NCBI RefSeq assembly: GCF_000016645.1
Contig: NC_009441.1
Span: 620,001 to 684,000, forward strand
Origin: Flavobacterium johnsoniae UW101
GTDB taxonomy: Bacteria > Bacteroidota > Bacteroidia > Flavobacteriales > Flavobacteriaceae
Length of the DNA stretch: 64,000 bases
Direction of reading: 5' to 3'
The notes under the pieces are model-generated. The model was not told the DNA's origin. It was given only the letters and a program-made list of their open reading frames with translations, and searched no databases. Below are positions 41,701 through 59,807 of the stretch, in pieces. A program made the translations under genes and the position numbers. Each line of letters begins with the position of its first letter. Within the stretch, counting starts at the first letter, position 1.

Positions 41701-44700
41701 TAAAATTAGAGTAACACTTGTTGGAGACGGAGTATATAGACCAAGTCTTGTTGACACTGTTACTTTAACAGAAAACGACCGCGATCCAGAAAGCGATGAT
41801 CCAAATGTATTCTTAGTTGAACCAAAATATTTACGTTATGTAGCAGATTTCATTCCGTTATGGAAACCAAGCTGGGCAAACGCATTATTGCCTTATCACC
41901 CAGAATATCAATATTATGTTTATAATTCTGCATTTTGCGAAAAGTTTAATGCAATTGGTGATAATTCAGATGGATTTGATGAAAAATTAAGAAACATTGA
42001 TTACGCTGATCCTGAAACAGGAGTAATTAAAGACAATACTATTTTTACACCTGGCGGCATTATAACACAGCTGTCAAATATTGGTGCACAAAATAATGAC
42101 AGCGATCCATATTATCTATCTCGCGCATCTCAAAATAATGTAGAATCTGAAGCAGATTTTACTTTGAGAAAAGACATAATGAAAGAAGCCATAAATACAA
42201 ATTTTGATGGTATCGCTCAAAGCAATGGAAAGAAGTTAAATATGCTTCAGGCATCATATTACTTTGCCGTATATTCAAACGGAATCACTCCAGAATCAGT
42301 ATATGAAGATTATATCAATTTATCTACTGCTGACTTATTAGTTAAAATTAACGCAATTCAGGATCCAATAGTTAAACAGCAGATCTGGACAAACTTCAGA
42401 ACATATTATACTGGGCTTAAGCAAAAAACACGTACAGTTTTCTCACATGTTTATGCAGCTACTAGAAATAATTACAATGATTGTATTGGTAATGTAGAAA
42501 GCTCAGACACTTTTGTTACTTTATTTAAAAAATATACAACAGTTGGCAATCCGCACAACTATGAGAGAATCACAAGATTAGTAAATACTATTCCTGAAAA
42601 TCCTTCTCTACCAAGCGGAAGTGAAGGAATCGAATGGGCATGCTCAGAAGAAACATCTTCATTATTTGCGACTAAAGAAAAAAGATTCATCCCTGCAGAT
42701 TATGGATATGATTCTGCCCTTACAGATGCTCAGGCTATTTCTGATTTAAGCACAACTACAGAAAAAGCCATGTATATGGAAACTGGAAAATGTCCTATGG
42801 CATTTGAAATGGAATATTTCTTAAAAGGATTAGTAGATAAAAAAATTCAAAGTCAAGGTTTACTTGTAAATGGTCTTAAAACTACAAGTATGATATACCT
42901 GACCAAAAATTTATTTAATGCACAGGTAAATCCAACTTTTAATTTACAAACGGCATCAGAAACTCCAAAGATAAAATCTTATGAAGATGCTTCTGGAGCT
43001 TTAAATATTACTTTTACCCACTTAGGCAATGAGATTGCAACTCCTATCGAATTAAGATTTGTTAACAATTCATCTTACTATCAGGATGCCTGTGGTAATA
43101 ATGTAAATACACCAAGATGGGAAGATATCGTAGACTTTAAAAGTTTTTACTATATCCCGGATTCTTATGATAATGTGACTAAAACTTATAAATTTCAAAT
43201 TATTGGAATTGTAAAACGTGACGGAGTGGCTTCAACTTGTATTTCTCCAGAAGAAATTATCATTGAAGGTACTACTAAAGCAAATGTGGGAGAATGCTCT
43301 TATTTAATAGATGCTCCATGTGATAAAAAAGACAAATTTGATGACTCATTCAGAAAATTAGTATTTAATCTGCAGACATTAGGAACTATTAGAAGCGCTA
43401 GTTTAGACATTACTAACAATCCTGTTTTCACAGATGGATACTTGTATACTTATTTTGGTATTAAACCAAATGATATTGTAAAATGGAAAAATACAGCTGA
43501 TGGGGTTTCAATTTCTGTAAATGATGAAAATCGTGTAGTTTTAAATCTTGGAGGTTATAATTTAGGTTCAGAACGTATTACTAGTTTTTCAATTGGAAAC
43601 GTATTAGGAAATTACAACCAGGTAAGAATAGGGACAAAAAGATCAGTATTTTTATTTTCAACAAGACAAGTTACAGCTAAAATAACTTCTGGAAATACAA
43701 ACAGACCATTATATCTTGTTTGTTGCTCTCCTTGTGGTGAATGGGATTATAATGGAGATGGTTTAGGCGATGCCTGCGGAGGCGGTGGAAACTGTGGTAC
43801 TGTAGATACTGACGGCGATGGAATCTATGACGGCTGCGACAACTGTCCTAATACACCAAACCCAAATCAGGAACCTTGTAACAGCTACACTCCTATTACA
43901 TCTTGTACCGTTGCAGGAGCTGACGAACTTACTTATGAAAACAACATAAAAAATATTCTAAACGATTTCTTAATTACAAGAAATCATGAAGTTAATGCAA
44001 GCGGAGATTTTTATAAAGCTGGAAGTGTTTCAAGCTACAGCCCTATTAATGCTTTTGTGAGAGATTCTAAATTAGTTTCTCATTTCCAAAAACAAAGAAC
44101 AAGATATACTGAAAATAACTTCCGTCCGGTTGTTATAGACAAATACTCTATTGTAGCAGAAAACGACTTAGTAAGCATCAATTTTGATGAAAATTCAGGT
44201 TCGGTTTACAATAGAAACTTTATTAATTTCTATGGTATTAACATTAAAAGTGCCAGAAGAATTAATTATATAGACGTTACAAGCGACCTGACTTTCAGAA
44301 TTAATTTTGTAGACAGTCAAGGCAGAACTTTAACACAAGAAGGTGGTAAAATTTCTCATTATACTTTTACAAAAATTACAAGTTCAGAGGCTAAGGCTCC
44401 TGCTGTACCTTTCTGTCCTTTCATGTCAGAAACATATCCGCCTAAAACGACAAGCAAAAAATCTTTTGACAGTTTAGATGATTTATATGTTTCTGTAGCA
44501 GATGAAAAAATTATAGAAAACAATCGTTCGTCATTAACAGCAAAGACAGCTAAAAATAATGCTGTTAAATCAATATTAGAAGTAACACCAACTTTCAGTT
44601 GTTCAAACTTATGTATTCCAGTTGCAGTTGCCCCAATAGCATGCAGACCGCAATGGCTTACTTACAAAAATATGATCAACTTACAGGTGCCTGACTATAA

Positions 44701-47700
44701 ACTGCCTGAAGACTTAGATAAATATGCAAAGTTTTTCTGTGAAGCTAATTTTGGTTACATCAGTACTGATTATTTACAATATTTAGCAAAACTTGAAATT
44801 ACAACCGTTAAAAATCCGCTTTTCGTTAGCATAAGCGAATTTGGTTCAACTAAATTAAGATATGGAAATACAGTTACTGCTTCAGTAATTATTCAATATT
44901 ATAATTATGTACAGTCACAAATTGCAAATCCAACAGAAGAATTACTAGTTTGGCAGCAGTTTGCAGATAAGTATGCTGTGGATAATAAAATTTGTCCGCC
45001 TGCAATTATTCCTCCTTCATTTAGTTTAGAAATTCCAAATGAGGAAACAAGGACACCTTGTGAAATATATGCAGCCACAGTAAAAGCTGCTAATAAACAA
45101 GAAATTGAAAATACTTTCTACGCAGGAAAAAAAGAAGAATTTAAAGAAAAATATCTAAAAGCTGCCTTTGAAGGAATTACAGAAACTCTAACTCAAAGTT
45201 CTTTTGATAAAGAATATCAGTATACTTTATACTATTATGACCAGGCAGGAAACTTAATTCAGACCGTTCCTCCACAAGGAGTTAAAAGACTGGATCCAAA
45301 TTCTGATGCCGTTATTAAAGACGTAAGAGAAAACAGCCCGGAAAAAGTAGATACTACTCCTGTAAGCGGTGTTCCAGTGGCACCAGATCACAAAATGCAG
45401 ACACAATATCGTTACAACTCATTAAACCAATTAGTTTGGCAGAAAACACCAGACGGAGGTGTAACTAAATTTGCATATGACGCTTTAGGAAGAATTATTG
45501 CTTCTCAAAATGCAAATCAAGCTTTAGCAACGCCAGCTCTTTTCAGCTATACTCGTTATGATGGTTTAGGCCGAATTATGGAAGCCGGACAGCTTGAAGT
45601 TAAAACTGGTACTGCAATGCACATTAATGAAAACGGAAGATTGGTTTTTGCAAATGATGATTTAGTACCTGTTGATGCAGTTAATGATCATTTCCCTTAC
45701 AACCAAGGGTCTAAATTTGATCAGGTAACCAAGACATTGTATGATATTCCGGTTAAAGATACAGAAGACTGGTTTACCTCTTATGCTGGAGATAATAACC
45801 ATAAAAGAGTTACTGCTGTATTGTATTATAACCAATTAACAGCAGAGTTAGGAGAAATCAAAGCATACGATAAATACAGCAATGCCATATTGTATGATTA
45901 TGATGTACACGGAAACGTAAAAGAATTAGTTCATCATACCAATAACAATCAAAAATTAATTGATTTTAAACAAGATCTTAAAAAAGTAGTATACGACTAC
46001 GATTTAATCAGCGGAAACGTAAACAAAGTAACGTATCAGCCAAACAGTACTAAAGACCAGTTTATACACCGCTATGAATACGATGCCGATAATAGAATAA
46101 AACAAGTTTATACCAGTAAAGACAATGTAATCTGGGAGAAAGAAGCCAACTATCTGTATTATGAACATGGTCCTCTTGCTCGTGTAGAAGTTGGAGACAA
46201 AAAAGTACAAGGATTAGATTATATCTATACTTTACAAGGATGGTTAAAAGGCGTAAACTATGAAAGAATCGGATTTTATGATGCCGGAAAAGATGGTTTA
46301 GTTGTGGCAAAAGATGCTTTCGGCTATGCTTTAAATTATTATACAGGAGATTACAAATCGAGATTTAATGTTAACGGAAATAACAATCCTATTGACAATA
46401 CAATCTTTAGTTTTAGTAAAGATCTCAGCGGTAATTCAAATTTATATAACGGAAACATCAAGGAAATGGTTACTTCTCTGTTAAATACCAGCCAGCAGCC
46501 TATTCCTACCCAGTTCAATTATTATAAATACGATCAGCTTAATCGTATTAGCAGCATGAACTCTAAAGCTATTTCATATAACATAGGCGGTACAACAAAT
46601 TCTCCAGTTGACGGATTTAAAAGCAATTACAGCTATGATAGAAATGGTAACTTAGACAAAACTAATGTCTGGGCTCCATTAGCAGACGGTTCATTAAACA
46701 CAACGCAAATGGATCAGCTGAGTTATAATTATTTAGCCGGTACTAATAAACTAGATCACGTTAAAGATGCCGTTCCAAACGGTGCATTTTCAAACGATCC
46801 AAATAATGCAAATGATACATCGTTAGACATTGACAGTCAAGATGCCGGTAACTATGCATACGATGAAATAGGCCAGTTAATTAAAGATGCTAAAGAAAAT
46901 TTAGACGAAATTAAATGGCGTGTTGACGGTAAAGTTGAATCTGTAACGAAATTTAAAAATACACCGCAGCAAAAGGTAGTTATTAGTTTTGAATATGATG
47001 GTTTAGGAAACCGTACAGCCAAAAAAACGACAACGGCAACGTCATCTAAAACAACTTATTACCAGCGTGATGCTCAAGGGAATGTTTTGAGTACTTATGA
47101 AATGCAAGAAGAAGGCGGTACAACAAAGTATTTCCTTGTTGAACAGGAAATATACGGAAGCAGCCGTTTAGGAGTTGAAAGAGGAAGATTAGAAATAACA
47201 AAAGATGTTGCTTCTGCGCTTAAAAATTCTAAAACAATTACAGCAAGCGAGAAAAATGCAATTGTTGCAAAAGTGGCAGAAACAGTTTCTAAAGCCGGAA
47301 TAAAATTCTCTACTGAGGGAGGTTTTGCAGTATGGGAAGTAAATAACAAAAACGCAATTAACTTATTTGATAACAAATCAAGAAAAACAGAATCGCTTAC
47401 GGTAAGCACTCATCTAAAAATCGATCCAAATACAGATGCCGAAAATAGTACATTGGCCGTATTCCATGGATCTTCAGTAGAAGGAGATTTTCCTGGTGAT
47501 AATTCTGTAGGATATAGAAGTTCAATTGTATTAGGTATTAAGAAAGTAGGAACGGGCTATAGTCCAACATTCTCTTTAATCAAATACCGTCGAAATCATA
47601 ATAAGTACAAAACAGTAATTAAACTAAAAAAACGTACACGTCATTCATTTAGAAGTTATGCTACTGCGGTTGATTATGATGTAAGACCAACCGACAGACC

Positions 47701-49735
47701 AGGTATGTCTGTAATTTCAATACCGGAAAAAGAATGGGATTATAAAGCTGATATTGTTTTAAATCAAGCTACATCAAATTATGATATTACAATTACACTT
47801 AATGGAAACGTTTACAAAGGAATAGCTGCACAGCCTAGATCAATTCTAAACGGAGAAGAAAACAGAGGTTTTGAAGGCAACGATGGAAACTTAAAAATTA
47901 AGGTTCCAAACAATACACTTGGAGCAGCTACAATCGAATATCAGCCAGGTAACAGTATTGGCACATATAGAACTTTGAAATCAGATATTTGTGACTTTAC
48001 ATATAGTATAAACAATGGTGAAGATCCGGAAGACATTAAGATCAACAAATTTGAACTTGATGAGCCATCTACTAAAACATCAACAAAATCAGACACTGGT
48101 ATCCCAATGGTTATAAGTCAGGCAAAATTTGACGCAACGTTTTGTGGTAATCCGGATGAAGATTCAGATGGTGATGGTGTGATAAACAGTGAAGACAACT
48201 GTCCTTATACATTTAACCCAAAACAGGAAGATAAAGATGGTGATGGTGTAGGTGATGTCTGCGACAATTGTATAGACAAACGAAATGGTCTTTTAGAAAA
48301 AGATATTGAAGGTGTAGGAAACCAATTGGATACTGATGGAGACGGTCGTGGAGATGCTTGTGATAATTGTAAAAAAACACCTAACTTTGATCAAAAAGAT
48401 ACTGACGATGATGGTGTAGGTGATGTATGCGACAACTGTAGAACAATTGCCAATGGAGATCAAAAAGATACAAACGGAAACGGAATTGGCGATGTCTGCG
48501 AGGGACTTGACCAAGGAGAAGGAAACGAAACTGTAGCAGAAAGTCCATTAACATCATACCGTTTTGTGGGAGACAAAAACTATGAGTTATCGAACCATTT
48601 AGGAAACGTATTATCTGTGGTTACAGACCGTCCGTTATTCGTTCAAAATGGCTCTTCTTACAGATTCGATCCGGACGTTCTAAGCTTCTCAGATTACTAT
48701 CCTTTTGGAATGCTCGTGCCAAACCGTCATGAAAGCTCTAAAGACTATCGTTATGGGTTTAATGGAAAAGAAAAGGATGATGAATTTAATGGCGATGTTA
48801 ATAGCTATGATTATGGAGCTAGGATGTATAATCCTAGGGTTGGAAGATTTTTATCTTTAGATCCTCTCAGTCATGACTTTCCTTTTTATTCTCCATTTCA
48901 ATTTGCTGGAAACTCTCCTATATTTGCAATAGATCTTGATGGTTTAGAAATGCAAATTAGTAATACTGTCTTTACATTAAAAGAAGGAAAAGGAACTCCA
49001 GAATTAAATTATTCGACAGATATTAAAATTCATTACAAAGTACTTAATCTTACAGGAAGAAAGATTGAGGGAATTCAACAAATAACTGACTTTGCTAGAG
49101 ATCGTTCTAGGTTAGTTTACTCCGACAGAGCTGGTATGGGGAACTTTAGCATAACTTTTGATGGAAAAGGAAATCGATTAAAACAGCCTATTTCTTATAA
49201 GCTTAATGGTAAAATTAAAAGTTTTGAAACTACTTTTTCAGTAATAAAAAGTACAAAAGAGATTAATGATAGCGATTATGTTGTGATATTAGTAAATCAA
49301 CGTTTGAGTAACAAGAAATATCCAGAACATGCACATGCTAATTTGGCAGGTAACATAATGACTGTTGACATTGGAAATCCAGATTATAAGTCTATTTTGA
49401 CAAATGGCACTTTTAATTTTAATCTAATGACCACTGTTGCGAGAAAGATAGGTGCAACAATAAATCATGAAACAGGACATAATTTAGGCTTAGATGATGA
49501 ATACAAAATGAAGGAGGATGGCCAAGCTATAGTTAATCCGGGTTATGAAAATAATCAAATGTCAGGAGGTTCTGGTAAAGAACTTAACAGTAGACAAATT
49601 GCATCAATATTAAATGACATTTTTACAAATTTTAGAATTGATCTATATAATAAGAAAAAATCAGGTAAAGAACAGACAGATAGTACTAAATCACAAGTAA
49701 ATGAAGAACAAAAAAAACTTAATCTGGGGAATTAG
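38747..49735 (+). CDS. 3662-aa RHS-repeat polymorphic toxin with metzincin-like tip
   Basis: Signal peptide (about 1-23), a long N-terminal region, a Cys-rich stretch near 775-900, thrombospondin type-3 calcium repeats (about 1665-1705), YD/RHS repeats (about 2150-2820), a second block of DTDGDGxGDxCDNC repeats (about 3137-3250) and the RHS core (LSNHLGNVLSVVTD, DYYPFGMLVPNR, YNPRVGRFLSLDPL, AIDLDGLE, about 3280-3400). The variable tip (about 3400-3662) has H3574-E-T-G-H3578-x5-D3584 and a possible Met-turn NNQMSGG, suggesting a zinc endopeptidase. RHS shells enclose a released C-terminal toxin. Codons 3316-3337 lie in a 66-bp inverted repeat. The next gene overlaps by 35 bp. Confidence 0.88.
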   Translation: MYINKHLIAFVFTLFSLFAFSQQEETISPRKKGNQLNGQPILQVSDPKLASLDQKNVFTSLKPSVSIHFGFEEDLSASSDETFLNAYGTVYFAEVVLIVKPMDKNGNPITTYTDIPGAPKTNPFEVTLKIKHDHVTKEKQFNDYAVYQLPGVHNADITVKSIKYTDVNSNVLTITNSPAYVELKFSTERYYNMQLNATQYTSVFPLTHQLIKYNGLTETTVSQVSAGAEELIINWTKDAVAPAVEYELEWTWIDNYSKTANGKLSPDEIALTEKDFKLNSTRIQTKDLSYRIPLVYSKGYLVYRVRPVGRFLDNTNKNFYGQWTSGLTDAYTKVSHWPHFVEIDQAHESGKKNWQYQASFAEDGKKKEVVSYFDGSLRNRQTVTKTNTPGEELVGSQLKATQGKAIVGEVIYDNQGRPAVEVLPAPVNSSGIHFYNDLNKNASNTIYSHNDFDWDNPTVTDCTPIPAPTMSNANGAGKYYSENNTVNSNYKDLVPNAQGYPFSQVEYTPDNTGRIKRKGGVGKDHQIGTGHEMQYFYGQPKQEELNRLFGYKVGDFSRYKKNIVIDPNKQASVSYLDPQGRTVATALVGDNKGSLISLDDETNDNLHLKTVTNLLSNNDKYASGINGIEEDGIRLNTPVSVVKEGEVKIEYTFKKDIASYTDSCLTTKQYPFVYNWSIGMKNDCADELLTGNPLTTKFGTFSLDTFSPAAIELQKREYFALENGQHLKVGTYPLSKDLRIDYDALNKYADDYIAQIISDKKCLPDYAGLEPDITAEDCNVTCKSCEESLICTNLTKEQCDAFKLKLSADPADLGKVSERESFITDAEVQYVIKNLNAFFTVSTFAYNGTQFTAAGIDQKNILPKVTAYKAEFRGLLSGCRELCKQPINVCNLNLEVLLGDVSPNGQYGSVAGLDAEDEEINDPASSKITDPLSIFNENNQLLYGGYTNGVELDPDTNQNVPVKISNYNWKKPFGGSYKEADGSISKIRVTLVGDGVYRPSLVDTVTLTENDRDPESDDPNVFLVEPKYLRYVADFIPLWKPSWANALLPYHPEYQYYVYNSAFCEKFNAIGDNSDGFDEKLRNIDYADPETGVIKDNTIFTPGGIITQLSNIGAQNNDSDPYYLSRASQNNVESEADFTLRKDIMKEAINTNFDGIAQSNGKKLNMLQASYYFAVYSNGITPESVYEDYINLSTADLLVKINAIQDPIVKQQIWTNFRTYYTGLKQKTRTVFSHVYAATRNNYNDCIGNVESSDTFVTLFKKYTTVGNPHNYERITRLVNTIPENPSLPSGSEGIEWACSEETSSLFATKEKRFIPADYGYDSALTDAQAISDLSTTTEKAMYMETGKCPMAFEMEYFLKGLVDKKIQSQGLLVNGLKTTSMIYLTKNLFNAQVNPTFNLQTASETPKIKSYEDASGALNITFTHLGNEIATPIELRFVNNSSYYQDACGNNVNTPRWEDIVDFKSFYYIPDSYDNVTKTYKFQIIGIVKRDGVASTCISPEEIIIEGTTKANVGECSYLIDAPCDKKDKFDDSFRKLVFNLQTLGTIRSASLDITNNPVFTDGYLYTYFGIKPNDIVKWKNTADGVSISVNDENRVVLNLGGYNLGSERITSFSIGNVLGNYNQVRIGTKRSVFLFSTRQVTAKITSGNTNRPLYLVCCSPCGEWDYNGDGLGDACGGGGNCGTVDTDGDGIYDGCDNCPNTPNPNQEPCNSYTPITSCTVAGADELTYENNIKNILNDFLITRNHEVNASGDFYKAGSVSSYSPINAFVRDSKLVSHFQKQRTRYTENNFRPVVIDKYSIVAENDLVSINFDENSGSVYNRNFINFYGINIKSARRINYIDVTSDLTFRINFVDSQGRTLTQEGGKISHYTFTKITSSEAKAPAVPFCPFMSETYPPKTTSKKSFDSLDDLYVSVADEKIIENNRSSLTAKTAKNNAVKSILEVTPTFSCSNLCIPVAVAPIACRPQWLTYKNMINLQVPDYKLPEDLDKYAKFFCEANFGYISTDYLQYLAKLEITTVKNPLFVSISEFGSTKLRYGNTVTASVIIQYYNYVQSQIANPTEELLVWQQFADKYAVDNKICPPAIIPPSFSLEIPNEETRTPCEIYAATVKAANKQEIENTFYAGKKEEFKEKYLKAAFEGITETLTQSSFDKEYQYTLYYYDQAGNLIQTVPPQGVKRLDPNSDAVIKDVRENSPEKVDTTPVSGVPVAPDHKMQTQYRYNSLNQLVWQKTPDGGVTKFAYDALGRIIASQNANQALATPALFSYTRYDGLGRIMEAGQLEVKTGTAMHINENGRLVFANDDLVPVDAVNDHFPYNQGSKFDQVTKTLYDIPVKDTEDWFTSYAGDNNHKRVTAVLYYNQLTAELGEIKAYDKYSNAILYDYDVHGNVKELVHHTNNNQKLIDFKQDLKKVVYDYDLISGNVNKVTYQPNSTKDQFIHRYEYDADNRIKQVYTSKDNVIWEKEANYLYYEHGPLARVEVGDKKVQGLDYIYTLQGWLKGVNYERIGFYDAGKDGLVVAKDAFGYALNYYTGDYKSRFNVNGNNNPIDNTIFSFSKDLSGNSNLYNGNIKEMVTSLLNTSQQPIPTQFNYYKYDQLNRISSMNSKAISYNIGGTTNSPVDGFKSNYSYDRNGNLDKTNVWAPLADGSLNTTQMDQLSYNYLAGTNKLDHVKDAVPNGAFSNDPNNANDTSLDIDSQDAGNYAYDEIGQLIKDAKENLDEIKWRVDGKVESVTKFKNTPQQKVVISFEYDGLGNRTAKKTTTATSSKTTYYQRDAQGNVLSTYEMQEEGGTTKYFLVEQEIYGSSRLGVERGRLEITKDVASALKNSKTITASEKNAIVAKVAETVSKAGIKFSTEGGFAVWEVNNKNAINLFDNKSRKTESLTVSTHLKIDPNTDAENSTLAVFHGSSVEGDFPGDNSVGYRSSIVLGIKKVGTGYSPTFSLIKYRRNHNKYKTVIKLKKRTRHSFRSYATAVDYDVRPTDRPGMSVISIPEKEWDYKADIVLNQATSNYDITITLNGNVYKGIAAQPRSILNGEENRGFEGNDGNLKIKVPNNTLGAATIEYQPGNSIGTYRTLKSDICDFTYSINNGEDPEDIKINKFELDEPSTKTSTKSDTGIPMVISQAKFDATFCGNPDEDSDGDGVINSEDNCPYTFNPKQEDKDGDGVGDVCDNCIDKRNGLLEKDIEGVGNQLDTDGDGRGDACDNCKKTPNFDQKDTDDDGVGDVCDNCRTIANGDQKDTNGNGIGDVCEGLDQGEGNETVAESPLTSYRFVGDKNYELSNHLGNVLSVVTDRPLFVQNGSSYRFDPDVLSFSDYYPFGMLVPNRHESSKDYRYGFNGKEKDDEFNGDVNSYDYGARMYNPRVGRFLSLDPLSHDFPFYSPFQFAGNSPIFAIDLDGLEMQISNTVFTLKEGKGTPELNYSTDIKIHYKVLNLTGRKIEGIQQITDFARDRSRLVYSDRAGMGNFSITFDGKGNRLKQPISYKLNGKIKSFETTFSVIKSTKEINDSDYVVILVNQRLSNKKYPEHAHANLAGNIMTVDIGNPDYKSILTNGTFNFNLMTTVARKIGATINHETGHNLGLDDEYKMKEDGQAIVNPGYENNQMSGGSGKELNSRQIASILNDIFTNFRIDLYNKKKSGKEQTDSTKSQVNEEQKKLNLGN
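48691..48756 (+). repeat. 66-bp inverted repeat, trunk copy
   Basis: Identical, base for base, to the reverse complement of 53153-53218. It encodes DYYPFGMLVPNR and the next ten residues of the RHS core. Sequence on both sides diverges at once (48757 G versus C). The clearest internal inverted motif is TTTGG/CCAAA (48704-48708 and 48719-48723). Confidence 0.97.
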
Positions 49736-50273
49736 CGCGTTATTAATTATTAATTGCATTTTATTACTTAAGAATTGTAATCAAAAGCAATTAATAGAAG
49801 TAAAAGATAAAAAGATTGATAAAACTATAGATAAAAAAGTACTTTTTACAGGAGAATTTAATGATGTTGGTAGCCCAATAAATTTCTGGGATTTCTATGG
49901 TGATAATGGAGAATCAATTTTAAGTTTGATTTTCTATAAAAATGACAAAAACGAATTTGATTATGAAATTAAGCAAAAAAACTCTTTGGGAAAAATTGTA
50001 TATAGTGCTGAAATGAGAAATGGGAAAGTTTTAAAAGAATTTGATTATGAAATTTTACAAAATATAAATATAGATAATGGCAGATTTATGTACGAAAATT
50101 ATTGCGTAAATTGCCATAATTACAAAAAAGAAGGAGTATCAAAACCTTTACTAAAGCTTAAAAATATTGAAGTTTCTAAATTTATCAAAAAATATAAAAA
50201 TGTTTCCCATGAAAATGTTCCAAAACTAAATGACAATGAACTGAAATCTGTTATTTTATTTATTAATAAATAG
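49701..50273 (+). CDS. Membrane-anchored cytochrome-c-like protein, candidate immunity protein 1
   Basis: 190 aa. One N-terminal hydrophobic helix (about 6-25), a beta-rich middle (FNDVGSPINFWDFYGDNG), then a small class-I cytochrome c-like domain with the haem motif C135-V-N-C138-H139 and a C-terminal helix LNDNELKSVILFI. The usual Met axial ligand before the last helix is absent; the equivalent stretch reads NVSHENVPKL. It overlaps the RHS gene by 35 bp, the usual place for an immunity gene, and is markedly AT-rich. It may protect against the zinc peptidase tip. Alternatively it is an unrelated electron carrier. Confidence 0.65.
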   Translation: MKNKKNLIWGISALLIINCILLLKNCNQKQLIEVKDKKIDKTIDKKVLFTGEFNDVGSPINFWDFYGDNGESILSLIFYKNDKNEFDYEIKQKNSLGKIVYSAEMRNGKVLKEFDYEILQNINIDNGRFMYENYCVNCHNYKKEGVSKPLLKLKNIEVSKFIKKYKNVSHENVPKLNDNELKSVILFINK

Positions 50274-50314
50274 CCTCTAATTGTCAAGATCGTCTCACTA
50301 GTGGCTACAAAGAA

Positions 50315-50349
50315 AAAAAGAAAACCTCTCAACTATCTGAGGTTTTCTT
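50315..50349. terminator. Bidirectional terminator hairpin, left of recombinase
   Basis: AAGAAAACCTC and GAGGTTTTCTT pair around a 10-nt loop, followed by TTTC. It would end both immunity gene 1 and the convergent recombinase gene. Confidence 0.75.
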
Positions 50350-50446
50350 TTTCATTTTTAAGTGAAAGTATATATCTTATCTAACTTTTGTCTAAAATTT
50401 TATTGTTGAAGAAAATCATAACAACTAAAAAGTTCTATTTTCTGCT

Positions 50447-51493
50447 TTAGTAACTCTCCAATTTGCTATGGACCTTTTCAATCTCCTTATCCATATAAGC
50501 TTGTGCATAATGTACATATCGATTAAAAGAACTACTAGCGTTACTATGTCCGCTAATTTTGCGAACCAAATGCTCCGGCATTCCCAAAATAAGAAGTGTT
50601 GTAATTGCTGTACGTCGCATCATATGAGAACTCATTTTATCGCAAAAGCGATTTCTTGAAGTATCTGTTTTTTTTGTCAGCTTTTGAGTTTTTCCTTGTT
50701 GTTCTCTAGAGACTTCAATAGGCATTGTAAATCCAGCTTGCTCGCCAATTTGTTTTAGGCTTTTGTTGAAATTAAAAAGACTGATAGTCCCAAAAATTGG
50801 AATTCTATCACTGGTAGCTTTATAGCGTTGAAAGATCGTAATGGCATAAGCAGAAAGCTTAATGAAACTGAAGGTTTTAGTCTTTTGAGATTTGAGTTTT
50901 AAATACCAATCGCCTTCCATTTGTTCAAAGTTTTTATTAGTCAACAAAAAGATGTCTGAGTAACGTAAACCTGTAGAACATCCAAAGACAAAAATGTCTT
51001 TGATTCGTTTATGACTTGGAATAAGAGTTTGCTCGAAATCTTTATCGTGTATTAAAAATTTTAATTGCTCTGGAGATAATACAAAGATTTCTATCTCTTC
51101 TTTGCGAACATAGAATAGTCTTTGAAAATCGCCGGTAATAATATCTTTATCATTTTTAAGATAATTAAAAAAAACACGAATTATTTTGATGTTAGCACCA
51201 ACGTAATTATCATGACAGCCTTTTTTATATAGGAATTCTGTAAACTTTAGATAAAACTTTTTCCAATAACTTTTCTCTGATGCTAGTTCGCGTTTATCCA
51301 GTTTAGAAGCATCACAAATACGAAGTTCAAATTTTGTTTCACTCGAAAACTGAATCAGATTATTTAGTACATAATAGTAGTTTTGAATTGATCCTGATTT
51401 TATTTTTTCTCCATTTTTTTTAAGCCGTTTTCCTGATTCTGTTTCTTTAATGAATTGTTTGAATAACGGAACAATCGGAGTTGTTTTTTTCAT
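50447..51493 (-). CDS. Tyrosine recombinase/integrase
   Basis: 348 aa from the ATG at 51493; the frame is open to 51511, but that TTG overlaps the promoter box. An N-terminal SAM-like DNA-binding domain (PLFKQFIKE, KSGSIQNYYYVLNNL) precedes the catalytic domain with R in STGLRYSD, the H-x-x-R box in SHMMRRTA, the following GHSN histidine and a C-terminal tyrosine in RYVHYAQAY. All active-site residues appear present. Such enzymes integrate elements or invert DNA. Its place midway between the 66-bp inverted repeats makes it the candidate invertase for the RHS tips. No phage genes accompany it. Confidence 0.92.
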   Translation of the reverse strand: MKKTTPIVPLFKQFIKETESGKRLKKNGEKIKSGSIQNYYYVLNNLIQFSSETKFELRICDASKLDKRELASEKSYWKKFYLKFTEFLYKKGCHDNYVGANIKIIRVFFNYLKNDKDIITGDFQRLFYVRKEEIEIFVLSPEQLKFLIHDKDFEQTLIPSHKRIKDIFVFGCSTGLRYSDIFLLTNKNFEQMEGDWYLKLKSQKTKTFSFIKLSAYAITIFQRYKATSDRIPIFGTISLFNFNKSLKQIGEQAGFTMPIEVSREQQGKTQKLTKKTDTSRNRFCDKMSSHMMRRTAITTLLILGMPEHLVRKISGHSNASSSFNRYVHYAQAYMDKEIEKVHSKLESY

Positions 51494-51508
51494 GATTGTG
51501 ATTTTGGT

Positions 51509-51516
51509 CAAAAATA
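51509..51516 (-). promoter_or_regulatory. -7 box of the recombinase promoter
   Basis: TATTTTTG on the minus strand matches TAnnTTTG and puts the transcript start about 10 nt before the ATG at 51493. The recombinase thus has its own promoter inside the segment. Confidence 0.45.
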
Positions 51517-51566
51517 CAATTTTAGACGAAAGTAGAATAAAATGTATGTTTTTCTATCGAAAAAAT

Positions 51567-51605
51567 AAAAAGAAAACCTCACAGGAAATGTGAGGTTTTC
51601 TTTTT
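51567..51605. terminator. Terminator hairpin, right of recombinase
   Basis: AAAAGAAAACCTCACA and TGTGAGGTTTTCTTTT pair around GGAAA, with T/A runs on both sides. The 14-nt arm AAAAAGAAAACCTC is shared with the hairpin at 50315. The gap to 51839 also holds a small CAGAAA/TTTCTG hairpin near 51633-51650 and no ORF. Confidence 0.75.
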
Positions 51606-51839
51606 TAAATTCTATTTGTTTTGTGTATGCTCTTTACGAGTACAGAAAAGATTTCTGTGCTATCGCTGCGTATATCTAAGCGATCGAGTTTCTATTTTTT
51701 AGAACACGTTATATAACTAATTAACTCAAACTTGAATAAACTAGTATAACAATCATTACAAATTCATTTTTAAGGAGAATTCATTGAAAAATGAGGATAT
51801 ATTATAAGGTAAATATTCGGGCCATGCCAAACTAATGCA

Positions 51840-52127
51840 TTATTTGCCTTTTCGCTTATCTTTTGAAATTTTGATTAATAACACTAAGAAAGCTAAAAAA
51901 GCCGATGGTGAAAATAACAAAAAAAGATAATCAAGGTAAACAAAACTTATGTTGAATGATTTAAATAAAAAGTATTTCATAAGAGTAAAAAACATGAAAA
52001 TTAATGAGCAATAAAATGCTCGTTTAATTTTATCATTTTTATTATATAATAAAAATGATAAATAATATATCAATACGAATGTAATAAAACATACAGATAT
52101 AAAACCACTTAGGGTATAATCGTCCAT
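51840..52127 (-). CDS. Three-helix membrane protein, candidate immunity protein 2
   Basis: 95 aa: hydrophobic helices at about 5-27, 37-55 and 63-85, separated by short charged loops and ending KISKDKRKGK. No family is recognised. It lies 70 bp downstream of the orphan RHS tip on the same strand, mirroring the position of the immunity candidate after tip 1. Small multi-helix membrane proteins are frequent as immunity proteins. It is very AT-rich. It is probably silent together with tip 2 unless the segment flips. Confidence 0.6.
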   Translation of the reverse strand: MDDYTLSGFISVCFITFVLIYYLSFLLYNKNDKIKRAFYCSLIFMFFTLMKYFLFKSFNISFVYLDYLFLLFSPSAFLAFLVLLIKISKDKRKGK

Positions 52128-52197
52128 CGCTTAATTATTTTAACTTTATAAAAACGAGCTCAAATTTTGATATTTAATTGCAACTTTATATTCTATT

Positions 52198-53199
52198 TTA
52201 AAAACCATCTCCATCTTGAATATCATAATCGCTTTTCGTGTTCTTTATCTTTGTTGTTTTTGCTGGGATACTTGGCTTCTTAGGAATATCTATTTGTTCA
52301 GTAATACTCTCAACTAACTTGCCTTTACCTCCCGTACCAGATTCATCATATTCATATTCTTCAATATGTTTTGTAATTTCAATGACAGTGTTATTGTTTT
52401 TTGGATCTTGTTGTATTGCTTTGGCTATGTTTTTCATTACAATCTTCCATTGCAATATTTGGGCACCTCTCCCTAGATCTAATGGATATGCCATGGCTAA
52501 ATTTTCTCTGGTTTCATTAAAAATATTTATATCCATTTGTCCTGTTCTTTTATTGAAAACACCAGAAAATGTTATATACCCAGCATCAGTATGCCCTTCT
52601 AATGTTGCAAATGTCATTTCAAAAGAATTATCTTTTTTTACAACATTCATTACTCTAACAAAAATTGGGAATGGTGTTGCAGGCTGTAAATTAATTCCAA
52701 TTTCGTCACCGGGAGATAGAATATTTGAATTTGCTTTTTGAACTGGCTTATATGTCGCCATAAAGTTATTTGTAAAAGTCTGTGGTGCATTCAAAAAAGT
52801 ATCTCTTAAATTAGCAAATTCACTCGGTGTAATTCCTAGAGTTCTTAGTGAATACAATTGCGATGAAACATTCCCCATACCATCATCCATTTTTTTAATT
52901 TCCAAAGCATCTACACCATATTTTTTAGCCTTTAAATAAGCATTTATATTTTCGACTTCAAGACCTTCTCTTTCTACACCGTCCATAACCCTATTTTCAC
53001 TAAAAGAATACGGAGAATTATATGCATATTCTCTGAATAGAGGATCCACTGCAAAGAACCTACCAATTCTAGGATCGTGCATTCTAAAAGTATAGTTAAT
53101 CGAATTCCCTTCACCACCTCTAATCTCATCATCTTTTTCCTGCCCCTGGAAGCCATAACGATAGTCTTTAGAGCTTTCATGACGGTTTGGCACGAGCAT
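52198..53199 (-). CDS. Orphan RHS C-terminal tip (silent cassette) with DUF1990-like domain
   Basis: 333 codons from the internal ATG (MLVPNRHESSKDYRYGF). Without trunk or signal peptide it begins inside the RHS core, then has FRMHDPRIGRFFAVDPL and DGVEREGLE, which marks the core/tip border near residue 85. The tip contains LSPGDEIGINL, FATLEGHTDAGYITFSG and a late RGAQILQWKIVMKNIAKA helix, a pattern like DUF1990 (PF09348); its biochemical activity is unknown. The frame is open to 53226 and closed by TAA at 53227-53229 just outside the repeat. It would form a complete toxin only when joined to the 38747 trunk by inversion. Confidence 0.8.
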   Translation of the reverse strand: MLVPNRHESSKDYRYGFQGQEKDDEIRGGEGNSINYTFRMHDPRIGRFFAVDPLFREYAYNSPYSFSENRVMDGVEREGLEVENINAYLKAKKYGVDALEIKKMDDGMGNVSSQLYSLRTLGITPSEFANLRDTFLNAPQTFTNNFMATYKPVQKANSNILSPGDEIGINLQPATPFPIFVRVMNVVKKDNSFEMTFATLEGHTDAGYITFSGVFNKRTGQMDINIFNETRENLAMAYPLDLGRGAQILQWKIVMKNIAKAIQQDPKNNNTVIEITKHIEEYEYDESGTGGKGKLVESITEQIDIPKKPSIPAKTTKIKNTKSDYDIQDGDGF

Positions 53200-53218
53200 T
53201 CCAAAAGGATAGTAATCT
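53153..53218 (-). repeat. 66-bp inverted repeat, silent-cassette copy
   Basis: Exact reverse complement of 48691-48756. A 12-bp palindrome TAAAGCGCTTTA (53218-53229) sits at its outer edge and supplies the in-frame stop. The gap 53230-53472 has no ORF; it carries the promoter of the next gene. Confidence 0.97.
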
Positions 53219-53414
53219 AAAGCGCTTTAACATCAATAAAAATAAGAGCTAAGCTAATAATACCTGTCATCAAAAATTACATAAAAAGGCATTTTTGGGC
53301 TTTTTCAAAGATAAAAAATTAATCCCTTTTTGGTATGTTTTTTAATAGTTCAGTAACAGGAATTATTGCAATGTTTGATAACATATATTTATCCTTAAAA
53401 AACCTACAGATTTA

Positions 53415-55480: not shown

Positions 55481-55799
55481 CGTAAAAGCAAATTCTATTC
55501 TCGAATCGGTAATTGCCTTAACAATTATATCGATCTGTTTGTATTTTGCTATTTTGATTTTTGCTGCTGTTTTCACGCCGAGAACATCGGCTAAATTTTA
55601 CAACACACAAAATAAAGTCAACGAATTATTTTTCTTGTCACAGTTAAAAAATGATTCTCTGCAATATGAAAGCAATGATGAAAATCTTCTTATCGAAGAA
55701 GAAGTTGTAACCGATCATTTAAAAAAGATTTCGGTCGAATATAAAGACAGCACTAAGTTTAAATTTCAAAAAAGTTTTTATGTCGAAGGAAATCCGTAA
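55455..55799 (+). CDS. Minor pseudopilin (GspI/GspJ-like)
   Basis: 114 aa. A short basic leader is cleaved after Ala12 (SVKA/NSILESVIALTIIS), giving Glu at +5 and one long hydrophobic helix (to about 42). The short C-terminal domain (about 43-114) is too small for a major pilin. It should be an inner-membrane minor pseudopilin of the pilus-like piston. It overlaps its neighbours on both sides by 26 and 20 bp. The -1 residue is Ala rather than the usual Gly. Confidence 0.75.
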   Translation: MVFLKKYCSVKANSILESVIALTIISICLYFAILIFAAVFTPRTSAKFYNTQNKVNELFFLSQLKNDSLQYESNDENLLIEEEVVTDHLKKISVEYKDSTKFKFQKSFYVEGNP

Positions 55800-56280
55800 T
55801 AATAAAAACTCGGTCGCTGCATTTTCGATTATAGAAACTCTTGTAGGAATGGCAATTACAGCCATAATTATGGGAATATTGTTTCTCATATTTTCGATTG
55901 TAACCGAAAGAATGCTGGATTTTAAAAATCAGAATCAGCTTGTAAACGATTTAAACCGATTAACGTACAGTCTTAATAAAGATATATTCGAAAAAGAAAA
56001 AATGATTAAAACGGATAATGAATTGGCTTTTCGCGGATACGCCGGAGAAAAAACAATTTACCATTTTGAAGAAGATTTTACCACCAGAAGCCAGGAAACT
56101 TTTGTAGATACTTTTAAAATAAAATTGAAACAAATTGTCATCGACACTGTAAAAAACAAATCAGAAAGGTTATTGTTTCAAAAACTAAAATTAAATGTAG
56201 AGATCAATGAAAACGAATCTTCTTTAAGTTTCTATAAAAGAGTTTATGCTAATGAATTACTGCAAAAGATACCCAAATAA
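55780..56280 (+). CDS. Minor pseudopilin (GspJ-like)
   Basis: 166 aa. The leader MSKEIRNNKNSVAA is cleaved after Ala14, before FSIIETLVGMAITAI with Glu at +5. One hydrophobic helix (about 15-40) precedes a soluble domain with FRGYAGEKTIYHFEED. Gene order after the GspI-like protein fits GspJ. Its stop TAA overlaps the ATG of gspF by one base. Confidence 0.75.
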   Translation: MSKEIRNNKNSVAAFSIIETLVGMAITAIIMGILFLIFSIVTERMLDFKNQNQLVNDLNRLTYSLNKDIFEKEKMIKTDNELAFRGYAGEKTIYHFEEDFTTRSQETFVDTFKIKLKQIVIDTVKNKSERLLFQKLKLNVEINENESSLSFYKRVYANELLQKIPK

Positions 56281-57407
56281 TGAGTCTAGATTTAAGTACA
56301 TATAAAGCCCCAAAAGCCGAAAAGACAGATTTTAAATTACCATCTGGCTCGGCATCTTTTCAGTTATCGAAAAAATTATCTGATAAGAAAAAAGAGGTGT
56401 TTTACAGAGAACTGGGGATGCTTTTAAAATCAGGAGTAGATTTTAAAAAAGCATTGGAAATTCTCAGCAATCAGTCTGCCCATAAATTGGAAAAAGAAAT
56501 CATACTGGAAATAAAAGAAAAGGTGATTTCGGGAAGAAGTATTTATGAGTCAATGAAAGAAACCAATCAGTTTTCGGCATACGAATATTACAGTATTCAG
56601 ATTGGAGAAGAAACCAGAAAACTGGAAGAAGTTTTAGGAGAACTTCAAAAATATTTCAACAGAAAAATTCAGATGAAAAGGCAGATCGTTTCTGTTTTAA
56701 CCTATCCTGCAATCGTAATGATTGTAACGGTTTTGGTGCTATATTTTATGCTGAATAAAGTTGTCCCAATGTTTAGCTCTGTATTCAAACAATTTGGCAG
56801 CGAACTTCCAAAAAGCACACAAGTAATTATCAAAATTTCCAATCATTCTGGAACTATTTTTTCAATCGTTTTTGCTGTCATTATTGGATTAGTCATTATG
56901 CATACAATGCTGAAAGAAAAAGAATTTTATCGTGCTCTTACATCAAAAATTGTTTTAAGAATTCCCTATTTCGGAAACCTCATCAGAAAAATTTATATCT
57001 CACGTTTTTGTCAGGCCATGAATTTATTAACGACCTCAAAAACGACTTTAATAAACTCATTATCCTTAACAGCAAAAATGATTGGCTTTTATCCTATCGA
57101 AAAAGCCATAGAGGAAATTAAAGAGGATATTACAAGAGGTGCCTCATTACATGAAAGTTTAAAAAAGCATTCAGTGTTTGAAAACAAAATGGTATCAATG
57201 GTTGAAGTAGCAGAACAGGTAAACCAGCTGGAAACCATGTTTGAAAGACTTACGGAACAATATAACGAAGAAATAAGCCATCAGACAAAAATGATTGGCG
57301 TTATTCTGGAACCTATGATTATCATTGTCATTGGCGTAATTGTAGGAGTAATTATGGTGTCGATGTATGCACCAATGTTCGATTTAAGTAAAATTATAAA
57401 TAAATAG
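56280..57407 (+). CDS. gspF: Type II secretion/type IV pilus inner-membrane platform protein
   Basis: 375 aa, with two T2SSF domains (about 30-150 and 235-360) and three hydrophobic helices (about 145-165, 192-212 and 340-365), the standard GspF/PilC layout. Motifs include FYRELGMLLKSGVDFKKALE and SRFCQAMNLLTTSKTTL. It couples the GspE ATPase to pilin assembly at the inner membrane. No gap separates it from the upstream minor pilin; a 72-bp gap with a promoter box follows. Confidence 0.93.
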   Translation: MSLDLSTYKAPKAEKTDFKLPSGSASFQLSKKLSDKKKEVFYRELGMLLKSGVDFKKALEILSNQSAHKLEKEIILEIKEKVISGRSIYESMKETNQFSAYEYYSIQIGEETRKLEEVLGELQKYFNRKIQMKRQIVSVLTYPAIVMIVTVLVLYFMLNKVVPMFSSVFKQFGSELPKSTQVIIKISNHSGTIFSIVFAVIIGLVIMHTMLKEKEFYRALTSKIVLRIPYFGNLIRKIYISRFCQAMNLLTTSKTTLINSLSLTAKMIGFYPIEKAIEEIKEDITRGASLHESLKKHSVFENKMVSMVEVAEQVNQLETMFERLTEQYNEEISHQTKMIGVILEPMIIIVIGVIVGVIMVSMYAPMFDLSKIINK

Positions 57408-57428
57408 TAATAGTTTCATTACAATTTG

Positions 57429-57436
57429 TATTTTTG
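57429..57436 (+). promoter_or_regulatory. -7 box before the major pseudopilin
   Basis: TATTTTTG matches TAnnTTTG, 43 bp before the ATG at 57480. No clear -33 partner. It may give the major pseudopilin extra expression within the operon. Confidence 0.35.
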
Positions 57437-57479
57437 CGACCCATCGAATTAACATAATTTAATAAATAAATGCATACAA

Positions 57480-57914
57480 ATGTCGAAAACGATTAAAACA
57501 TTATTAAAAAATAGTAAAAAAGCTACAATTAAAGCATATTCGTTAACAGAGATCTTAATTGTTTTATGCATTATTGGAATATTATTACTGATGGTATTAC
57601 CAAACCAAACTTCAGTAATTGGGCAGGCAAAAGCTATAGAGGCACAAGCAATGCTGAATCAGGTTTACGGATTACAAAAAAGTCATTTTTACAGACATTC
57701 AAAATATTCAAACAGTCTTGAAGAATTAGGCTTCGAACAGGAACAAACCGTTGACGAAGGCGGGCAGGCTGTTTATAAAATTGAAATCATTGAAGCTTCA
57801 AACGATTCATTTGTGGCAAGAGCTACCGCAACATCAGATTTAGATGGAGACGGCAATTTTAACACCTGGGAAATCGACAATAAAAAAATGCTAACAGAAG
57901 TAACAAAAGAATAA
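57480..57914 (+). CDS. Major pseudopilin (GspG-like)
   Basis: 144 aa. The leader is cleaved after Ala19 (IKA/YSLTEILIVLCIIGI) with Glu at +5, followed by an N-terminal helix (to about 43) and a small globular domain ending DLDGDGNFNTWEIDNKK. The aspartate-rich loop resembles the calcium site of GspG major pseudopilins. It should polymerise into the piston that pushes substrates through the secretin. It has its own possible promoter box, in keeping with high expression. Confidence 0.8.
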   Translation: MSKTIKTLLKNSKKATIKAYSLTEILIVLCIIGILLLMVLPNQTSVIGQAKAIEAQAMLNQVYGLQKSHFYRHSKYSNSLEELGFEQEQTVDEGGQAVYKIEIIEASNDSFVARATATSDLDGDGNFNTWEIDNKKMLTEVTKE

Positions 57915-57916
57915 GC

Positions 57917-58396
57917 TTGGAATTAACTTTACTTTGTTTGTCATTTTCTTTATTGTTTGTGTTTTTTCAGGATTGGAAATACAGGCGCATTCATGTATTG
58001 CTGCCAGTTATTATTTTTCTATTTTCATTTTACCTGACACATTTAAAACTCATTCCAATAAAGAACATACTTTTTAACACCGCCTTTTTTATTATAACAT
58101 TAGGTGTGCTTGTTATTTATATGAGTATAAAGAACAAACAGTTTTTAAATCCGTTTGAGCATTATTTTGGTTTAGGTGATCTGCTGTTTTATCTGGCGGT
58201 TACTCCCCTGTTTATCCTTCCAAATTTTATTTTGTTTTTTATTCTCTCAATGCTTTTTGCTCTTTTACTGCAATTTGCATTTAAGAAATATATACACGAA
58301 AATACAGTGCCACTGGCAGGCTTTTCGTCTTTGTTTTTATTTATTATTCTGGTAAAAGACTATTTGCACTTTTATCAAAAATTAACCGTGATATAA
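57917..58396 (+). CDS. Minimal prepilin peptidase (A24 family)
   Basis: 159 aa from a TTG start 2 bp after the pilin stop. It is a polytopic membrane protein with about six helices. The two catalytic aspartates of A24 aspartyl peptidases are visible: D19 in FFQDWKYRRI and D88 in FGLGDLLFY. The N-terminal cytoplasmic methyltransferase/zinc domain of PilD/GspO is missing, as in TadV or archaeal FlaK-type enzymes. It should cleave the four pilin-like proteins of this cluster, which share Ala at -1. Whether they are N-methylated is unclear. Confidence 0.78.
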   Translation: MELTLLCLSFSLLFVFFQDWKYRRIHVLLPVIIFLFSFYLTHLKLIPIKNILFNTAFFIITLGVLVIYMSIKNKQFLNPFEHYFGLGDLLFYLAVTPLFILPNFILFFILSMLFALLLQFAFKKYIHENTVPLAGFSSLFLFIILVKDYLHFYQKLTVI

Positions 58397-58399
58397 ATT

Positions 58400-59803
58400 A
58401 TGCAGGATATTATTGTTCTTTCCGAAAACCAGCATATTGTATCAAGTGATCTTGCTAATCAATATCGAATACTTCCTAAATCTGTTTCAGAAAATATTCT
58501 CGAATTGTATGTTGACAGTGCTAATAGCAGTGCCGACGCAAAAGAAGAACTCGAACTTTTTTTAGGTAAAAACATTGTTTTCAGCCCAATAGATTCGTAT
58601 GAAATCGAAAAGGCACTTTCTATTTATTACCGAAAAGAAAGAATAACAACATCCAGCAAATCTCTAAATTTTGACAGAGGAGATTTTCTTGAAAATTTAT
58701 TAGAAGAAGCAAAATCACTCAAATGCAGTGATATTCATTTTGAAGTTTACGAAAAAAACGCCAGAATCAGATTTAGAATTGACGGCCAGTTAATTGAACG
58801 TTACAAAGTAGAACGCGAAAACTACCTTGAGCTTGTAAATAAAATCAAGATAAAATCTAAATTAAATATTACCGAAAAACGTTTACCTCAGGATGGTCGA
58901 ATTACAAACGACTCTTTTGACATCAGGGTTTCTATTTTACCTACTTTGTTTGGAGAAAAAATTGTAATGCGTCTTTTGGGTCAGGATGCTTCAAATATTG
59001 ATTTAAGCACACTAGGTCTACAAAAGGAAGAATTAGAGCATTATCTTGAAGCCGTAAAAAAACCAAACGGAATTATTTTAATAAGCGGACCAACCGGTTC
59101 CGGTAAAACAACAACGCTCTACGCAACGTTAAGATTGCTTAATGATAGCCGTAGAAATATAGTTACAGTAGAAGATCCTATTGAGTATACTTTAAAAGGT
59201 ATAAATCAGGTACAGCTTAAGGAAGATATCGGCCTGACTTTTTCATCGGCATTAAAATCATTTTTAAGACAAGATCCAGATGTTATCATGCTGGGAGAAA
59301 TTCGTGATTCTGAAACAGCTTTAATGGCCATACGAGCATCGCTTACCGGGCATTTAGTATTATCTACAATCCATACCAATTCAGCAATAGGAACCATTTC
59401 CAGATTAATTGATATGGGAGTTCCCTCCTATTTAATTGCCGAAACTTTAAATCTTTCGGTAGCACAGCGATTAATTCGAAAACTCTGTAATCATTGTAAA
59501 ACCGAAGTTCCTTGTACGAAAAAAGATTTTCCAATGAACTTTCAATTTCCGTATGAAATATCATCTTACTATAAACCTGTTGGATGCAACCAGTGTTTTC
59601 ATACCGGATATAAAGGAAGAACTGCTATTTATGAAGTCTTAACCATTGACACCAAAATAGCCGAAGCTGTAAAAAACAATACCATTACAGAATTATTCAG
59701 TAACGACGAAAACTATAAATCATTATCAGAAAAAGCTTTTGATATCCTTGCAGAAGGAGAAACAGCTTTAGAAGAAATATATTCTATTTTAATTAACTTA
59801 TAA
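58400..59803 (+). CDS. gspE: Type II secretion/type IV pilus assembly ATPase
   Basis: 467 aa. A short N-terminal GspE-N domain precedes the ATPase, with Walker A GPTGSGKTTT starting at residue 230, Walker B DPDVIMLGEIRD, a His box (LSTIHTNSAIG) and a Cys4 zinc site (CNHC...CNQC). The hexamer drives pseudopilus assembly from the cytoplasm. Start ATG 3 bp after the peptidase stop. The two CxxC pairs identify the extension type (GspE/PilB) rather than retraction ATPase PilT. Confidence 0.95.
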   Translation: MQDIIVLSENQHIVSSDLANQYRILPKSVSENILELYVDSANSSADAKEELELFLGKNIVFSPIDSYEIEKALSIYYRKERITTSSKSLNFDRGDFLENLLEEAKSLKCSDIHFEVYEKNARIRFRIDGQLIERYKVERENYLELVNKIKIKSKLNITEKRLPQDGRITNDSFDIRVSILPTLFGEKIVMRLLGQDASNIDLSTLGLQKEELEHYLEAVKKPNGIILISGPTGSGKTTTLYATLRLLNDSRRNIVTVEDPIEYTLKGINQVQLKEDIGLTFSSALKSFLRQDPDVIMLGEIRDSETALMAIRASLTGHLVLSTIHTNSAIGTISRLIDMGVPSYLIAETLNLSVAQRLIRKLCNHCKTEVPCTKKDFPMNFQFPYEISSYYKPVGCNQCFHTGYKGRTAIYEVLTIDTKIAEAVKNNTITELFSNDENYKSLSEKAFDILAEGETALEEIYSILINL

Positions 59804-59807
59804 CTAA

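Follow-up and report, generated by a model that had tools for sequence, protein, structure and literature searches.

Inversion systems that alter protein ends or specificities are already known, as is the displacement of RHS tips. In the R64-type shufflon the Rci recombinase flips DNA and thereby varies the C-termini of PilV, and in the hsdS locus of Streptococcus pneumoniae inversion by the tyrosine recombinase PsrA is reported to swap the specificity parts of a protein. Displacement of the C-terminal tips of RHS proteins is ascribed to homologous recombination (Jackson et al. 2009, PMC2935791), the process to which exchanges of tips among polymorphic toxins of the RHS and similar types have so far been attributed. 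Here we analyze a locus within positions 620,001 to 684,000 of contig NC_009441.1 of Flavobacterium johnsoniae UW101 (64,000 nucleotides, hereafter the window), where a giant RHS gene, an orphan RHS tip on the opposite strand and a tyrosine recombinase gene between them form what is very probably a site-specific DNA inversion switch that swaps RHS tips. Its features, in the coordinates of the window, are as follows:

38747 to 49735, plus strand: RHS gene, an open reading frame (ORF) of 3662 amino acids (aa), made of a trunk (about 3317 aa ahead of the site), the RHS core and the fused tip 1
48691 to 48756, plus strand: trunk copy of the inverted repeat, within the RHS core (66/66 bases identical)
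48702 to 48720, plus strand: putative crossover interval of the trunk copy, by homology to 19 bp mapped in Flavobacterium sp. P3160 and F. circumlabens P5626
48947 to 49735, plus strand: specific part of tip 1, metzincin-like in translation, with HETGHNLGLDDE
49701 to 50273, plus strand: candidate immunity gene 1 (ORF, 190 aa), with a lipoprotein-like start and CxxCH
50447 to 51511, minus strand: tyrosine recombinase, 354 aa (Pfam Phage_integrase, PF00589, E 6.9e-12)
51840 to 52127, minus strand: candidate immunity gene 2 (ORF, 95 aa), hydrophobic
52198 to 53199, minus strand: orphan RHS core plus tip 2 (ORF, 333 aa), whose ATG start sits inside the repeat
53153 to 53218, minus strand: orphan copy of the inverted repeat (66/66 bases identical)
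53189 to 53207, minus strand: putative crossover interval of the orphan copy, by the same homology

By its layout the locus resembles the R64-type shufflon, in that inversion by a tyrosine recombinase would join the constant part of a gene to alternative C-terminal parts, and several of the related loci described below hold arrays of 3 to 6 RHS cores. It differs in that the recombinase lies inside the segment, the site belongs to the RHS core itself, and the gene acted upon encodes a polymorphic RHS effector, each tip of which has a candidate immunity gene next to it. With RHS C-terminal displacement (PMC2935791) it shares an intact rhs gene accompanied by unattached tips made of a core piece and a variable tip, whereas here a recombinase co-occurs and the tips are inverted. 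The orphan of the window lies on the opposite strand and not downstream in the gene's own direction. In displacement arrays the tips are as a rule oriented as the parent gene is. The arrays of Ornithobacterium hominis and Bergeyella (PMC13183296) likewise combine a Bacteroidota RHS gene with orphan tips and immunity genes, but these are presented as displacement with pseudogene tips, and the word 'inversion' is absent from the main text. The hsdS inversion alters DNA methylation specificity, whereas a secreted effector would be altered here. Searches of open-access full texts, a body that leaves out most preprints and subscription papers, gave among the matches listed no case of a recombinase swapping RHS or contact-dependent growth inhibition (CDI) tips, in line with the initial annotation, which knew of no described RHS system of this kind. 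Within that literature, the combination of an inversion switch with RHS tips appears to be new.

The anatomy put forward in the initial annotation was borne out at each point examined. The perfect 66-bp inverted repeat between the RHS core of the 3662-aa gene and the head of the orphan tip matches over all 66 bases, either copy translates in the same codon phase into the peptide DYYPFGMLVPNRHESSKDYRYGF, the recombinase ORF between the copies is complete, and each tip is followed by a small ORF on its own strand. The arms are separated by 4396 bp, along which candidate immunity gene 1, the recombinase gene and candidate immunity gene 2 follow one another, and the similarity between the arms decays inward (116-bp arms, 84%) and ends abruptly outward. 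A 341-bp piece spanning the core has just two matches in the whole genome (6,096,872 bp in a single contig), both of them the repeat copies. A chance repeat was rejected on account of the 66 identical bases and of a layout that is conserved across loci.

The 3662-aa protein combines the RHS repeats and RHS-associated core of RHS polymorphic toxins, with Pfam matches to DUF6443, RHS_repeat and TSP_3 and a match to Rhs_assc_core (TIGR03696) at residues 3317-3400 (E 1.9e-13); the ORF of orphan tip 2 matches the same core with an E value of 7e-7, slightly under the family cut-off. Judged by eye from the translation, the N-terminus of the trunk gene product looks like a signal peptide. The Pfam and NCBIfam matches of the 3662-aa protein include no PAAR domain, the mark of type VI delivery. 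PAAR marks only the type VI secretion subgroup of RHS toxins.

In the recombinase, residues R183, K210, H296, R299, H322 and Y332, which we take to be the catalytic residues of tyrosine recombinases, are all present in the window protein, and in an alignment of 37 relatives each shows a conservation of at least 97%; a structure search gave no match to a solved structure. Its subfamily (E <= 1e-40) occurs in 28 of 398 genomes of the genus, a figure that includes a protein of 37% identity, a partial one and one interrupted by 10 stops, and at the level of the order (E <= 1e-60) in 5 of 296 genomes, of which G560 belongs to another genus and G042 to another family. The 20 named loci with a close recombinase come from Flavobacterium (19) and Flavobacteriaceae (1). 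A non-redundant set of 39 loci was assembled from 19 of these (the partial locus L050 was left out) and 20 further genomes, excluding G115 (37% identity) and G181 (partial) and counting duplicate contigs, recognized by their equal length, once. An RHS core lies near the recombinase in all 39, and inward-facing cores lie on both sides of it in 32; outside this count, G624 and G560 have inward cores as well. Among the best 120 of 1686 recombinase matches, 119 of which came with a contig size, 22 contigs measure 4-5 kb, compared to 10 of 3-4 kb and 8 of 5-6 kb, an excess near the segment size that is suggestive only.

The 66-bp repeat as a whole should not be equated with the site of recombination. 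From locus to locus its outer edge hardly shifts, its inner edge does, and in one strain pair, treated below, the crossover is confined to 19 bp. Over 23 loci with two copies the exact match extends for 13 to 146 bp (the longest being limited by the stretch examined), and in 20 of them it starts 7 or 6 bases ahead of TATCC. The edge is set by a contig end in three loci (L034, L049 and L097); among the 20 without this limit, 17 have it at position -7 or -6, the exceptions being L043, L047 and L100. The two copies are as little alike in their outer flanks (0.34) as unrelated flanks are (0.37), and reach 0.98 in the site; the inner linker scores 0.89 between copies of one locus versus 0.54 between loci. 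The copies within a locus thus stay similar over a stretch in which the species diverge, and this fits repeated exchange or conversion between the two copies of each locus. The exact 21-mer of the site, GATTACTATCCTTTTGGAATG, was found in 14 of the 398 genus genomes, and 12 of these 14 also have the recombinase (Fisher 9e-14). When the site peptide was searched for with a degenerate pattern, 35 of the 398 genomes matched, and inverted DYYPFGM pairs at most 10 kb apart occur in 13 of the 19 with the recombinase versus none of the 16 others (Fisher 1.9e-5); one genome (G235) holds five further cores encoded by different codons. At 53219-53260 of the window and in the orphan flanks of many relatives, a non-coding AGTTCTT-like word stands about 20-40 bp outside the orphan site, often followed by TTATTGA, and may be an arm site of the recombinase, a promoter or a trace of ancestry.

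The comparison of related genomes, which had been suggested as a check on the proposed switch, revealed the inverted state in relatives that carry the same recombinase subfamily and site. In genome G156, the first 40 kb of a 3,273,945-bp contig repeat its end directly with 99.5-99.8% identity, like an unclosed circle, and the 4.56 kb at 20227-24784 lie inverted at 3256456-3251899 with 99.9% identity. The outer flank enters the other tip at all four junctions, the switch falling within a 60-bp identical stretch. At the left end the trunk ORF spans 3963 aa; at the right end an open frame of 3003 aa carries the trunk on into the other tip, and the remainder forms a second ORF of 978 aa, a split that is perhaps an end-of-contig error. 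As in a shufflon, the constant part is thus joined in frame to alternative C-termini at both ends of the G156 contig, and the codon phase in the window agrees with this. Strains P3160 and P5626 share a 4808-bp segment in opposite orientations, which, when aligned in the orientation of the recombinase, has 100% identity after rounding and a one-base difference in length, with flanks of 87-98% identity inverted; the crossover maps inside 19 bp, CTTTTGGAATGCTGGTACC.

Contig ends pointed the same way. Ten genomes, picked for a contig ending at or near the site or as the P3160/P5626 pair, were surveyed, and four of them yielded junction information. In F. cupreum a trunk contig and a flank contig both run into one tip with 127 bp of identical overlap. 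Two contigs of F. humi contain tip R, sharing 123 identical bp: in the first it comes after the trunk, in the second after the outer flank, and this same outer flank also precedes tip P. In G277 two distinct flanks overlap one tip end by 127 bp; its trunk-like flank is open for 169 aa only and has no BLASTP match to the window trunk, and therefore a trunk is not established there. The evidence from LC2016-23 is weaker, as its trunk contig stops, branch-like, at the inner end of the repeat. The trunk frames of F. cupreum, F. humi and LC2016-23 are open across all 500 codons examined. Since 127-bp overlaps are typical of de Bruijn branch points, both joins are probably present in the reads of these assemblies. 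Across 20 loci of the non-redundant set (G156 counted once) the trunk lies at the 5' side of the recombinase in 9 and at the 3' side in 11. Two pairs of close loci, L038/L039 and L041/L085, differ in state although their flanks are 90-91% alike.

From these data the following course is proposed for the switch. The recombinase, encoded inside the segment, would pair two inverted copies of a short site, which would serve both as DNA target and as coding sequence for the RHS core motif DYYPFGMLVP, and would exchange strands around CTTTTGG. The two tips, their candidate immunity genes and the recombinase gene, about 4.5 kb in all, would then turn round as one segment. Tip 1 would leave the trunk (about 3317 residues) along with its candidate immunity gene, and tip 2, accompanied by its own, would be joined to the trunk in frame. 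The detached tip would have neither trunk nor signal peptide and would presumably be silent. Because the flip would exchange a tip together with its candidate immunity gene, one clone would contain two effector types.

Several observations weigh against this interpretation. The inverted state of the window genome was found in no relative, and its single-contig assembly shows one orientation, so that inversion in F. johnsoniae UW101, as well as the part of its recombinase as the likely catalyst, is deduced from sequence comparison. No trunk adjoins the segment in P3160 and P5626, and this pair consequently demonstrates the reaction and not a trunk swap; the recombinase of P5626 is moreover interrupted by a frameshift, and those of G205, G254 and G294 contain one stop each and that of G261 contains 10. 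The 21-mer also occurs in G207 and G396, both devoid of the recombinase. The inward core pair is missing in 7 of the 39 loci: L044 and L109 are truncated by contig ends, L048 has a single core, the cores of L095, L098 and L101 all point in one direction, and in L093 the recombinase lies outside the inverted pair.

Among other explanations, the one that fares best accepts that flipping is real in the family but holds that it is locked or very rare in the strain of the window. It would agree with the one orientation assembled there and with the recombinases broken in some relatives, but the window recombinase is intact, with the family-conserved residues in place, and its repeats are perfect across 66 bp, and we consider it unlikely. 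Less probable still is that the orphan is a relic of displacement and flips by general, RecA-type homologous recombination independently of the neighboring enzyme. An identity of 60 bp, such as that around the G156 exchange, is enough for RecA-type recombination, but the 19 bp at the crossover of P3160 and P5626 are short for RecA. Displacement is the mechanism described for RHS genes (Jackson et al. 2009, PMC2935791), although general recombination would be hard to reconcile with an outer repeat edge at the same base pair in 17 of 20 loci or with inverted core pairs confined to genomes that have the recombinase. It is highly improbable that a mobile element landed by chance next to an unrelated repeat and that the recombinase is simply its integrase: tyrosine recombinases of other kinds occur in 42 of 60 relatives (E <= 1e-3), but this subfamily has RHS cores nearby at 39 of 39 loci, mostly as inward pairs, on which ground a chance neighbor was rejected, and no further mobile-element gene was detected among the ORFs and Pfam matches of the window segment. 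Assembly error is scarcely credible as the source of the inversions, for although the evidence comes from assemblies, and in G156 both copies sit at contig ends and one block of their alignment has 85 gap openings, independent assemblies concur in the overlapping ends of G156, the contiguous loci of P3160 and P5626 and the near-even side of the trunk across 20 loci.

The tips at these loci are diverse. A set of 83 tips of at least 150 aa, drawn from 37 loci, fell into 70 BLASTP clusters, and 27 Pfam families matched them (E <= 0.01) with one or two members apiece, so that variable C-terminal domains, some from toxin families, accompany the RHS cores. The matched families include colicin DNase, the nucleases WHH and AHH, Ntox23, Ntox35, Reprolysin, RES, a CdiA tRNase domain, CHAP and glucosaminidase; the remaining matches were weak or non-toxin. 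The two Reprolysin members are most likely tip 1, in which HETGHNLGLDDE is presumably the metzincin motif, and a relative in L036 that is 33% identical to it. The window's tip 2 matched no recognized toxin family; a Bet v 1/START-like fold is predicted for about residues 80-305 (mean pLDDT 70), with a best Foldseek E value of 2.2e-5 and a TM score of 0.32 by query. The initial annotation had regarded a degenerate orphan cassette as evidence against a switch, and the orphans proved intact: 62 of 66 unfused tips reach at least 150 aa, with a median of 332 aa compared to 343.5 aa for the fused tips (n = 22). A small ORF follows 67 of 73 tips on the same strand and 22 of 73 on the opposite strand (shuffles, 6%). 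In the proposed reading the tips would be toxic and these downstream genes protective. Candidate immunity gene 2 has no Pfam family match. Candidate immunity protein 1 matches cytochrome c under the curated Pfam cut-off, and this match, together with its CxxCH, is unusual for an immunity protein.

If the switch operates as proposed, a resident recombinase that swaps a toxin along with its candidate immunity gene would give a programmed, reversible and heritable choice of weapon within a clone, from which the bacterium may benefit. It would also pose a testable puzzle: must a silent cassette keep its immunity gene on for siblings in the opposite state to escape killing? The recombinase, its site and locked mutants would provide a handle for measuring the value of weapon diversity in competition. 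Because the site is a conserved protein motif, any RHS tip bearing it would be compatible, and we tentatively suggest, at somewhat less than even likelihood, that the recombinase also captures and releases toxin-immunity cassettes with the RHS-core site at their head, as a shufflon and cassette-capture engine in one. Such capture would amount to a dedicated machine for renewing the contact weapons of Flavobacteriaceae. In L094, L097 and L108, and also in L092, L095 and L099, the recombinase is accompanied by 3 to 6 RHS cores in shufflon-like arrays; some of these cores are in direct orientation, which would permit deletion or capture of tips.

Around the recombinase gene of the window, two hairpins with T runs and like stems (50314-50359 and 51560-51606) may insulate it from both tip cassettes. 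Recombinase pieces are broken or doubled in some relatives (L047 from 8438 onward, G261 and L046), which suggests that the switch may be locked in them. Downstream of the switch, 55780-62899 holds a cluster resembling type II secretion and type IV pilus systems, with matches to T2SSF, T2SSE, secretin and PilN and weaker ones to pilin and prepilin peptidase, which is possibly the exporter of the RHS protein; the same type II secretion-like genes lie near the module in 18 of 31 loci, and none was found in the examined DNA of the other 13. Upstream, at 18167-38725, large genes of 1857, 2491, 927, 1290 and 236 aa run in the direction of the trunk, and the parts of them that were scanned gave PKD, LRR and VWA-like matches.

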